The notes beneath the pieces are model-generated. The model was not told the DNA's origin. It searched no databases and worked only from the letters and a program-made list of their open reading frames with translations. From Nitrospirota bacterium (GTDB lineage: Bacteria > Nitrospirota > Thermodesulfovibrionia > Thermodesulfovibrionales > UBA6898), in the NCBI GenBank assembly GCA_024275975.1, contig JAJRYC010000018.1, positions 1 to 32,562 on the forward strand: a stretch of DNA of 32,562 nt, given 5' to 3'. The position numbers and the translations under genes were made by a program. This document shows positions 8,066-11,426 of the stretch, one piece after another. How positions within the stretch are numbered: the stretch's first letter is position 1; each line of letters starts with the position of its first letter.

Positions 8066-8352
8066 ATCCGGCGTTCCTAAGCACTCTAATAGATTCTGCC
8101 CATAAATTCAGTTTCTCTATCTGTCATTCCGACAGTCCTTAACTTACCATGTTGCACATATTTGACTGGACACCGGAGAGTTATTTAATTAAATGGAGCT
8201 CCGCCCCTTCCCCCGGTTCAAAGAAAAGCAACAGAGCAACGGATAAAGACGCATGGCGCAAAGCGCATAGCAAGAACAAAGACATAAAGAACGGAACCAA
8301 GAAAATGCACCCCGCGATTCTTTTTTAACGGTCTGCTTCCGGTCTGCCCGCT

Positions 8353-8392
8353 AAATTCAAGAAACTCGCTTCGCTCAGACAGTCTTGAATTT
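8353..8392. repeat. inverted repeat, 10-bp arms
   Basis: AAATTCAAGA (8353-8362) pairs perfectly with TCTTGAATTT (8383-8392) around a 20-base loop containing ACTCGCTTCGCTCAG. It resembles a dispersed chromosomal hairpin repeat; copy number elsewhere is unknown. Confidence 0.6.
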
Positions 8393-8550
8393 TAAACGCG
8401 TTCAGCCTCGGAATCATCCCTAAAATAATCAAAGGGGAATGAAAGAAAGGCATAGCGCAGAGAGCATGGCGCATAGCGTTAAAGCCTGGAAACAGAAGAC
8501 CAGGATGAAAAGTAATACCAACTGATGATAATTATAAAATCCCCCTCAGT

Positions 8551-8569
8551 CCCCCTTTACAAAAGGGGG
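8551..8569. repeat. hairpin repeat CCCCCTTT/AAAGGGGG
   Basis: A perfect 8-bp stem (8551-8558 with 8562-8569) around a 3-base loop. A second CCCCCT run precedes it at 8541. C-rich/G-rich hairpins of this type are common dispersed repeats in related genomes as I remember them; it could also stop transcription leaving arsM. Confidence 0.6.
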
Positions 8570-8639
8570 AGACCTGAACAGTTACCCTTACTGTTTAATT
8601 CAAGAGCATTATACGTTACTGTATTTAAAAAATTGGGTA

Positions 8640-9443
8640 CTAAGCGGGAGGTTTCCTTGCCTTTATATATGCTGAAAACACCATCTTTTCAACCCCTTTC
8701 CCGAAATTCCAGCTTCTGATTATCTCGTCGCTGTTGTCCTTGTCCTGAATAACAATATCTGTAAAACCTGCTCCGGTCAGGATTTCCTTCAGTTCCTCCA
8801 CGGGAACCGCGCCGGTTATTCAGCCGCTGTATGCATCTTCATTGTTCCTTATCTCCTCGGAAAAATCACCCTTTTTTAGTACATCGGAAATCGCCAGTCT
8901 GCCCCCTGGTGTTAGCACGCGGAAGGCCTCATTTATGACGGACTGCTTGTCTGGTGAAAGGTTGATCACGCAGTTGGATATGATCACATCGATCGATGAA
9001 TCATCAACAGGCAGGTGCTCAATGTCTCCAAGCCTGAATTCCACGTTTTTAACCCCAAGCCTGTCGGCGTTCTCCGTTGCCCTTTCAACCATTTCCGGCG
9101 TCATGTCCACGCCCGTAACAAAACTCTTCGGACCCGCCTTCATGGAAGCAAGGAAGGCGTCGAATCCCGCGCCGCTTCCCAGGTCGAGAATATGTTCGCC
9201 TTCTTTAAGATCGGCAATCGCATGTGGATTGCCGCAGCCGAGGCCGAGATTCGCCTCGCCAAGCCCTGTTTTCAATTCTTCATCGGAATAGCCAAGCCGC
9301 CGCCCTGTTTCAAGAATACTTACAGACCCTGAATTTGGAGAGCAGCAACTGGCGGAAGGAAGAGAGGACGCCTCATTTAATGCTACTTTTGAATAGCTTT
9401 TAATTACAAGATGTTTGATGCTTAATCTCCCTCTGTCTGTCAT
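8640..9443 (-). CDS. arsM: ArsM-type arsenite methyltransferase, candidate selenoprotein (Sec at UGA 8822-8820)
   Basis: Class I SAM methyltransferase: SAM motif ILDLGSGAGFDAF at 85-97 and the ArsM hallmark GLGCGNP (Cys70). Family members methylate As(III) using SAM and conserved Cys residues. The frame meets TGA at codon 208, inside AYSG-stop-ITGAVPVEELKEIL; in homologues this position is the catalytic Cys (CmArsM Cys174). Homology continues for 59 more codons (FTDIVIQDKDNSDEIIRSW, then GVEKMVFSAYIKARKP, the usual C terminus) to TAG at 8642-8640, giving 267 residues. A SECIS-like hairpin follows the TGA. I therefore read it as Sec; a TGC to TGA mutation is the alternative. The ribosome site GGAGG lies four bases before the ATG. 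It follows htpG by about 65 bases on the same strand. No selA, selB or selC is in this window. Confidence 0.8.
8790..8809 (-). promoter_or_regulatory. candidate bacterial SECIS element
   Basis: In the mRNA, CGGUUCC pairs with GGAACUG (7 bp, one G-U) around the loop CGUGGA. The stem begins 10 bases after the UGA and the loop 17 bases after it. The second loop base is G. These match the published general features of bacterial SECIS hairpins (loop roughly 16-37 bases from UGA, a G among the first two loop bases). Folding was done by eye. Confidence 0.65.
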
Positions 9444-9509: not shown

Positions 9510-11426
9510 TCACGCCTGGAGGCGTTTTGTCTTATCAACCATCAGTTCGGCAACGGCTTTTGTAAATGCGGTCGGGTCTTTCGGCTTTGAGCCCTCCAGC
9601 AGAAGGGCTTGATTATAAAGCAAATCCGTGAACTCTTCAAGCAGGCGGTTGTTCTTATTATCTTCAAACAGCGCGTTCATGGTCTCGATGACCGGATGGG
9701 AAGGGTTAATCTCGAGAATTCTTTTGGACGCTGGAATGTCCTGTCCCATCGCCTTCATGAGTTTCTCCATCTGCGGGTCCATACCCCCTTCATCGGCGAC
9801 AAGACAGCAGGCTGAATCTTTCAGTCTGCCCGAGAGCCGGACCTCCTTGACGTCGTCTTTCAGCCGGTTGCTGATAAGCTCAATCAGTTTTTCATATTCC
9901 TTCCTGGCCTTCTTCTTGTCGTCTTCCCCTGATTTATCAAGATCCAGGTCCCCTTTTACCGCGGATTTGAGCTTTTTCCCTTTGTAAGTGCCCAGCCCTG
10001 TCATGATGATATCGTCAATTTCGTCCAGCATTATAAGCACTTCGTAATCTTTTTCTTTAAATGCTTCAAGATACGGGGACGTTATTATTTCGTTACGGGA
10101 GGCGCCGGTTATATAGTAAATGTCTTCCTGCCCCTCTTTCATGTTGTAGACATATTCCTGGAGACTCACATATTCGCCTGGTTCTTTTTTTGTCGACTCA
10201 AAAAGAAGCAGGTCGGCTATCTGTTCCCTCCTGGAGAAATCGAAATGTATCCCTTCCTTTAATACCCTTCCGAATTCTCTGTAAAAATTGAGGTATTTGG
10301 CGGGATCGTTTTTCTTCATATCAGCGATTGTATCGAGCACCAGTTTCGTAATGTTTTTCCTGATGACCGTGATATACCTGTTGTTCTGGAGCAGTTCTCT
10401 TGAGACGTTTAATGGGAGATCCGAGGAGTCGACCACTCCCTTCACAAACCTGAGGTATACAGGGAGCAAATCCTCGCAGTGGTCCATTATCCGGACCCTT
10501 TTGACATACAGGGCAGGGCCGATCTTGTAATCTTTATAAAGGATATTAATCGGGGCCCGTGAGGGTATGTACAGAAGCGCCGTAAATTCGGAAGTCCCTT
10601 CGGCCCTGTAGTGAATTACGTCGGCGGGTTCAGAAAAATCACCCGAGATATGTTTGTAGAATTCAGTATACTCATCCTGACTGACTTCGGACTTGGGTTT
10701 AAGCCAGATCGCCTTGCCCGAATTCAACCTCTCTTCTTCCCTGACCGTGTATTTTTGTCCCTTTTCGATCGTACTCTCTTTTTCACGCTCTACATCCATG
10801 ACGATGGGGTGCTCAATGTAATCGGAATACCTCTTTACTATGTCGCGTATCTCCTCTTCATTGAGATATTTCTTCTCTTCTTTTTTTATGTGCAGAATAA
10901 TATCAGTGCCCTTGTCCGCCTTTTCTATGTCTTCCACGGTAAACGCGCCGTCGGATGACGATTCCCATTTAACGCCTTTTTTATCTTTCCTGCCGGCTTT
11001 TCTGGACAGTACCGTGACCTTGTCGGCAATCATAAAGGACGAATAGAATCCAACGCCGAACTGACCGATCAGCCCGGGGTCGTTTTTTGTCTCCCTGTCG
11101 CGCAATGCCTTGATGAAGTCCTGAGTCCCGGAATGCGCGATTGTTCCCAGCGCCTCTATTATCTCCTCCCGGGTCATGCCTATGCCGTTGTCATGTATGG
11201 TCAGAGTTCCAGCGTCCTTGTCCGCTGTGATTTTGATCTTCCATTCTCCGTCCCCTTCCAGGATATCTCCGTTTGTGAGAGATTCATAACGCGCCTTGTC
11301 TATGGCGTCCGAGGCATTGGAGATGAGTTCCCTCAGGAATATCTCCTTGTGGGAATAAAGGGAGTGTACCATCAAATCCAGTAATTGTTTGACTTCTGCT
11401 TTAAATTCAAGACTTTCTACGGCCAT
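9510..11426 (-). CDS. htpG: molecular chaperone HtpG (Hsp90)
   Basis: 638 residues, full length for bacterial Hsp90. The N-terminal GHKL ATPase domain shows LRELISNASDAIDKARYESL (Asn and Asp for Mg-ATP), DNGIGMTREE and GQFGVGFYSSFMIADKV. The middle domain carries the LPLNVSRELLQNNRYI segment with the catalytic Arg, and the C-terminal dimerisation domain starts around 510. It acts in the cytosol on partly folded clients. The ATG at 11426 has AAGGAGT about 10 bases upstream. It ends with TGA, then arsM follows on the same strand, so the two may be co-transcribed. The 150 bases upstream hold no CIRCE-type inverted repeat that I can see. Confidence 0.96.
   Translation of the reverse strand: MAVESLEFKAEVKQLLDLMVHSLYSHKEIFLRELISNASDAIDKARYESLTNGDILEGDGEWKIKITADKDAGTLTIHDNGIGMTREEIIEALGTIAHSGTQDFIKALRDRETKNDPGLIGQFGVGFYSSFMIADKVTVLSRKAGRKDKKGVKWESSSDGAFTVEDIEKADKGTDIILHIKKEEKKYLNEEEIRDIVKRYSDYIEHPIVMDVEREKESTIEKGQKYTVREEERLNSGKAIWLKPKSEVSQDEYTEFYKHISGDFSEPADVIHYRAEGTSEFTALLYIPSRAPINILYKDYKIGPALYVKRVRIMDHCEDLLPVYLRFVKGVVDSSDLPLNVSRELLQNNRYITVIRKNITKLVLDTIADMKKNDPAKYLNFYREFGRVLKEGIHFDFSRREQIADLLLFESTKKEPGEYVSLQEYVYNMKEGQEDIYYITGASRNEIITSPYLEAFKEKDYEVLIMLDEIDDIIMTGLGTYKGKKLKSAVKGDLDLDKSGEDDKKKARKEYEKLIELISNRLKDDVKEVRLSGRLKDSACCLVADEGGMDPQMEKLMKAMGQDIPASKRILEINPSHPVIETMNALFEDNKNNRLLEEFTDLLYNQALLLEGSKPKDPTAFTKAVAELMVDKTKRLQA

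Follow-up and report, generated by a model that had tools for sequence, protein, structure and literature searches.

A probable selenoprotein arsenite methyltransferase gene, with an in-frame UGA, recurring across the order Thermodesulfovibrionales

A minus-strand gene in the window (the whole 32,562-nucleotide stretch of Nitrospirota DNA analysed here, contig JAJRYC010000018.1) very probably encodes a 267-residue SAM-dependent arsenite methyltransferase (ArsM) with one selenocysteine (Sec), the most likely role of which, judged by homology and by gene context in relatives, would be the detoxification of arsenic by methylation. An ArsM-type selenoprotein with a UGA-encoded Sec had originally been predicted from this DNA alone, and the prediction is supported by three lines of evidence: the recurrence of the TGA in homologous genes, a hairpin immediately downstream of it and the presence of the sel genes in the genome.

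The reading frame and its recurrence in relatives

The ArsM frame comprises 267 codons with a single in-frame TGA, at residue 208 (Table 1), while the plus strand over the same bases is not open. Translation with TGA read as U gives MTDRGRLSIKHL...AYSGUITGAVPVEEL...AYIKARKPPA, and past U208 the homology runs on for 59 codons to the normal C-terminal end. Translation and homologue alignment together thus bear out the earlier claim that the frame is broken by TGA alone and that homology resumes after it. The full-length protein scores 321.3 bits against the NCBIfam arsenite methyltransferase model NF008823 (cut-off 263) and contains a Pfam Methyltransf_31 domain (139 bits), in keeping with a SAM-binding Rossmann methyltransferase fold. 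Ordinary gene calling returns only the front part, a product of 207 residues at 8820-9443.

Table 1. Features of the arsM locus in the window
Feature	Coordinates	Strand	Basis
arsM selenoprotein gene (ATG 9443-9441; TAG 8642-8640)	8640..9443	-	translation with TGA as U; NF008823
In-frame UGA, putative Sec208, column of the arsenic-binding Cys224 of CmArsM	8820..8822	-	alignment; codons of homologues
bSECIS hairpin, 7-bp stem, loop CGUGGA (8802-8797), 17 nt from UGA to apical loop	8790..8809	-	structure kept in relatives with altered sequences
Cys158 codon, arsenic ligand, equivalent to CmArsM Cys174 (SNCVINLS)	8970..8972	-	invariant
Cys70 codon, third arsenic ligand, equivalent to CmArsM Cys72 (GLGCGNP)	9234..9236	-	invariant
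Cys33-Cys34 pair in the N-terminal segment	9342..9347	-	present in most homologues
htpG (Hsp90), 66 bases upstream of arsM, same strand	9510..11426	-	Pfam HSP90, 457 bits; context only

Alignment of ArsM homologues had been proposed as a way of counting Cys and UGA at this site. Among the 109 homologous loci covering the residue-208 column, the codon is TGA in 36 (33 distinct sequences), and the other 73 have TGC (38) or TGT (35), so that the column holds Cys or UGA and nothing else; one fragment, L045, ends before it. In the 176 genomes of the order that were searched, a full or nearly full arsM with an in-frame TGA is found in 28, the window genome included, and the other TGA genes of the order are 62-79% identical to the one in the window. 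Fragments of a TGA-containing arsM in two more genomes (G161 and G092) raise the count to at least 30. A scan of contigs from many phyla also detected TGA genes beyond the order, at six loci (L049, L050, L051, L105, L115 and L116) in genomes labelled Deltaproteobacteria or Desulfobacteraceae/Desulfonatronum; the ArsM regions of two other loci, L047 and L048, are equal to those of two genomes of the order (L034, L032). In a plasmid collection only distant matches to arsM of the Cys type were found.

This distribution bears on the possibility that the TGA is a mutation or misreading of TGC or TGT in a pseudogene or a faulty assembly, leaving a dead fragment of 207 residues. The defect would be confined to one codon, a single base away from TGC or TGT, and arsM decay is known in the group: a copy in G102 (L174, G102:C14:34800-35600) has lost its middle part, and its two halves lie in different frames. 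Against this, the identical TGA recurs in no fewer than 30 genomes of the order, each assembled separately, and is found in other phyla as well; homology continues to the C terminus, and the downstream hairpin is selected in TGA genes only. Close relatives carry TGA at this site, not a TGC from which one contig has departed by error. Assembly error and pseudogene were thus rejected on the conservation of the same TGA in many relatives, and the chance that either applies is close to nil.

A maximum-likelihood tree built from 103 proteins places 32 of the 33 Sec sequences in one clade (support 98/92), within which no Cys form was found in this sample; the 28 sequences of the order make up a clade of their own, connected to sequences of the Desulfobacterota type. 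The remaining Sec sequence, L105, lies outside the main clade at the end of a long and weakly supported branch. On this phylogeny Sec may have had a single origin, L105 being weakly placed; several independent gains were also considered.

The hairpin, the decoding machinery and the genetic code

The element following the UGA, CGGUUCC-CGUGGA-GGAACUG, has a predicted energy of -7.9 kcal/mol and was found exactly as first described: a 7-bp stem and a 6-base loop with G in second position, beginning 10 bases downstream. It was compared with the published rules for bacterial SECIS elements (stem of 4-16 bp, loop of 3-9 nt with a G among its first two positions, a distance of 16-37 nt from the UGA, minimum free energy of -7.5 or below) and agrees with all of them, while an Rfam search of the site matched no RNA family. 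By itself the energy is only mildly unusual, being equalled or bettered by 7 of 200 shuffles, and since the folding energy of a single sequence is weak evidence, a comparative test with synonymous codons was used. Across the 33 distinct TGA genes the mean length of the best SECIS-like stem is 6.85 bp (at least 6 bp in 32 of them), as against 4.57 +/- 0.23 bp, with a maximum of 5.18 in 100, when codons are randomised synonymously and the protein is kept; the 33 sequences are interrelated and do not represent 33 independent tests. Among 72 Cys homologues the mean stem, 4.375, matches that after randomisation (4.36). Diverged TGA genes have other hairpin sequences in a slightly shifted register at the same place, such as GGUUUC-CGUG-GAAACC in L040 and UUUCACC-CGGUGA-GGUGAAA in L050, indicating that the structure is kept while its sequence changes. 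By this sequence comparison, TGA genes show selection on the hairpin over and above that on the codons, whereas Cys genes show none.

A search of the genome for the Sec machinery had also been suggested, and all four genes were found in the window genome (2.51 Mb, 97% complete): selA (596 bits), selB (371 bits), selD (348 bits) and the gene for a tRNA-Sec with anticodon UCA (selC). The selD gene itself (L128, G000:C68:27926-28849) has one in-frame TGA, in the active-site motif SSCAGUASKF, and represents a second selenoprotein of this genome. In the order as a whole, selA is present in 29 of the 30 genomes with a TGA gene and in 124 of the 146 others, a co-occurrence that is not significant (p = 0.13), since selA is almost universal in the order. 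The TGA-carrying genome G167 (96% complete) is without selA and without a full selB. In G143, G150 and G170 the two genes are neighbours on a single contig, G143 and G150 being the same-family relatives of G167 that were checked; since selA and selB adjoin in relatives, a single missing stretch would explain their absence, and this is the likely reason for it.

The tRNA content is also relevant to the alternative that UGA is read as another amino acid, either by reassignment to Trp or Gly or as Cys through a tRNA-Cys of the selC* type. Relatives do use Cys at the residue-208 column, and the genome holds a tRNA-Sec-like tRNA-Cys (G000:C91:10675-10768; L002 1501-1592, minus strand), which scores 57 bits against the tRNA-Sec model, above its cut-off, and is additional to the canonical tRNA-Cys on C98. 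Nitrospirae are among the anaerobes in which selC* tRNA-Cys have been reported (PMC7609411), and this tRNA fits that description. Its anticodon, however, is GCA, which reads UGC and UGU rather than UGA, and decoding by this tRNA was rejected for that reason. Moreover, among the tRNAs found in the genome tRNA-Sec is the only one with anticodon UCA, the one tRNA-Trp found has CCA, and UGA serves as a stop elsewhere, ending 2 of the 17 firm genes in the window; tRNA content and stop usage led to the rejection of a change in the genetic code. With the hairpin and the full sel gene set favouring Sec, any such alternative decoding is very improbable.

The active site, gene context and proposed role

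The original prediction had placed the UGA at the catalytic Cys of the family, as the equivalent of Cys174. Its position at a catalytic, arsenic-binding Cys is upheld, but the residue is a different one. In a HMMER alignment with solved structures, counted along its length, U208 stands opposite the Cys of the CmArsM motif YGECLGGAL (4kw7), that is, Cys224, while CmArsM Cys174 is the first Cys of SNCVCNLS and is represented here by the intact Cys158; Cys70 matches CmArsM Cys72. All three positions are invariant in an alignment of 35 homologues in which C was written for U. In CmArsM arsenic is bound by Cys72, Cys174 and Cys224; the first methylation requires all three, and the C174A and C224A variants are inactive in both methylation steps (PMC3877260). 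The three ligand positions are thus all present in the window protein, as Cys70, Cys158 and Sec208, with Se predicted to replace S in the last. Since U208 occupies the column of the required Cys224, the UGA falls at an essential ligand, and a protein ending at codon 207 would therefore lack it.

An AlphaFold model with Cys in place of Sec has a pLDDT of 87.8, and its best fold match is CrArsM, followed by CmArsM, with human AS3MT also scoring high; the same three proteins are the closest sequence matches in the PDB. The TM-scores are moderate (about 0.6) with a large rmsd, so that domain placement in the model is not to be over-read.

Within the window no ars genes adjoin arsM. Its only close same-strand neighbour is htpG, which does not imply a functional link. 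Downstream, about 575 bases (8066-8640) are without convincing genes and include an inverted sequence, CCCCCTTT/AAAGGGGG, near 8542-8570. In relatives the context is more telling of arsenic: at L047, where arsM is 71% identical to that of the window, a SaoE-like permease, arsR and a thioredoxin-type arsC precede the gene, and at L050 an ArsR-type regulator lies upstream. A separate type of frame in the order, exemplified by L172 82-1401 (G098:C1), fuses the arsenosugar radical SAM protein ArsS (TIGR04167, DUF3641; its C-terminal part was seen) to an ArsM domain; about 15 similar frames, of 640-740 residues, also occur in the order, and the ArsM part is without an in-frame stop.

A stand-alone TGA paralogue was also observed in the order (L173 75-839, G144:C1), in which Sec again occupies this column (WSDUVGGA). 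In this protein Gly replaces the Cys158-equivalent ligand (SNGVLNLS), and CGVGNP stands where the window protein has GLGCGNP. Its top scores are to ArsM fusion selenoproteins, yet far below their cut-offs, and it is below the ArsM cut-off too, so that its substrate may not be arsenite. Similar TGA matches occur in G150, G153, G157, G160-G165 (several), G170 and G172.

The window protein could likewise be a selenoprotein methyltransferase acting on another thiophilic substrate, for example selenium, antimony, bismuth or an organoarsenical, instead of arsenite. The lack of ars genes in the window would suit this, as would the L173 paralogue, which keeps Sec without the Cys158 equivalent and indicates that Sec is not tied to the three-ligand arsenic site. 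The window protein, on the other hand, retains all three ligand positions and scores above the NF008823 cut-off, and its homologue at L047 adjoins arsR and arsC; a substrate other than arsenite is accordingly an unlikely, though not far-fetched, reading.

For an arsenite methyltransferase containing Sec, the following mechanism can be proposed. SelB would bring Sec-tRNA-Sec to the UGA; in the finished protein, Cys70, Cys158 and the Sec208 selenolate would together bind As(III), which would accept a methyl group from SAM, after which the oxidised active site would be reduced, probably by thioredoxin. A low pKa, strong binding of arsenic and easy re-reduction are general traits of selenolates. 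A Se ligand could thus be deprotonated at cell pH, bind As(III) tightly and be quickly re-reduced. Methylation of As(III) by Sec-ArsM is inferred from homology and gene context in relatives, and any benefit of the selenium from general selenium chemistry. More tentatively, and with the odds rather against it, Sec may have been fixed early in the ArsM of the order and kept since the Se-As bond alters the rate, the product (more or fewer methyl groups) or the redox recycling of the enzyme in anoxic habitats. If so, Sec-ArsM would be a functionally distinct arsenic enzyme, not interchangeable with Cys-ArsM.

Implications and relation to known systems

Gene calling that ends at residue 207 loses the C terminus as well as an essential arsenic ligand, and the arsM of the window is likely mis-annotated by standard annotation. 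Because standard calling stops there, the gene can be missed or misinterpreted in surveys of the arsenic cycle, both in this order and among related bacteria. The system also offers a natural exchange of Se for S at a single, defined ligand of arsenic, and many Cys homologues can serve as a reference, so that the influence of selenium on arsenic methylation can be tested directly.

The algal CmArsM and CrArsM and human AS3MT (4fr0, 5evj, 8xt7) share with the window protein the fold and the three arsenic-ligand positions, but have Cys at position 224 where the window protein would have Sec; moreover, the algal chains are of 377-387 residues, compared with 267 here. The fusion selenoproteins NF041537 (ArsM/AhpD), NF041536 (ArsM/DUF2284) and NF047649 (methyltransferase/UXPK-star), reportedly described by Haft and Tolstoy in 2025, likewise have Sec in the UxxG of an ArsM-type domain. 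They differ in having a second domain and further Sec residues, whereas the window protein has one domain and one Sec and falls well short of their cut-offs (168 vs 510, 163 vs 575 and 150 vs 460 bits, respectively).

For the selenoprotein arsenite methyltransferase itself, the reference that reviews give is Fomenko et al. 2007. The existence of selenoproteins in this family had been described in the original prediction as something proposed; their existence stands, and "proposed" proves too weak a word, as two reviews list arsenite methyltransferase among the experimentally verified selenoprotein families (NF008823, motif UxxG, WP_011987699.1; PMC13188914, PMC9312934). The window protein, which reads SGUITG, has NF008823 and UxxG in common with WP_011987699.1 and comes from a different organism, the likeness being one of family and motif as listed. 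The selenoprotein kind of ArsM is already known; the present analysis adds a Sec clade with good support that recurs throughout this order.
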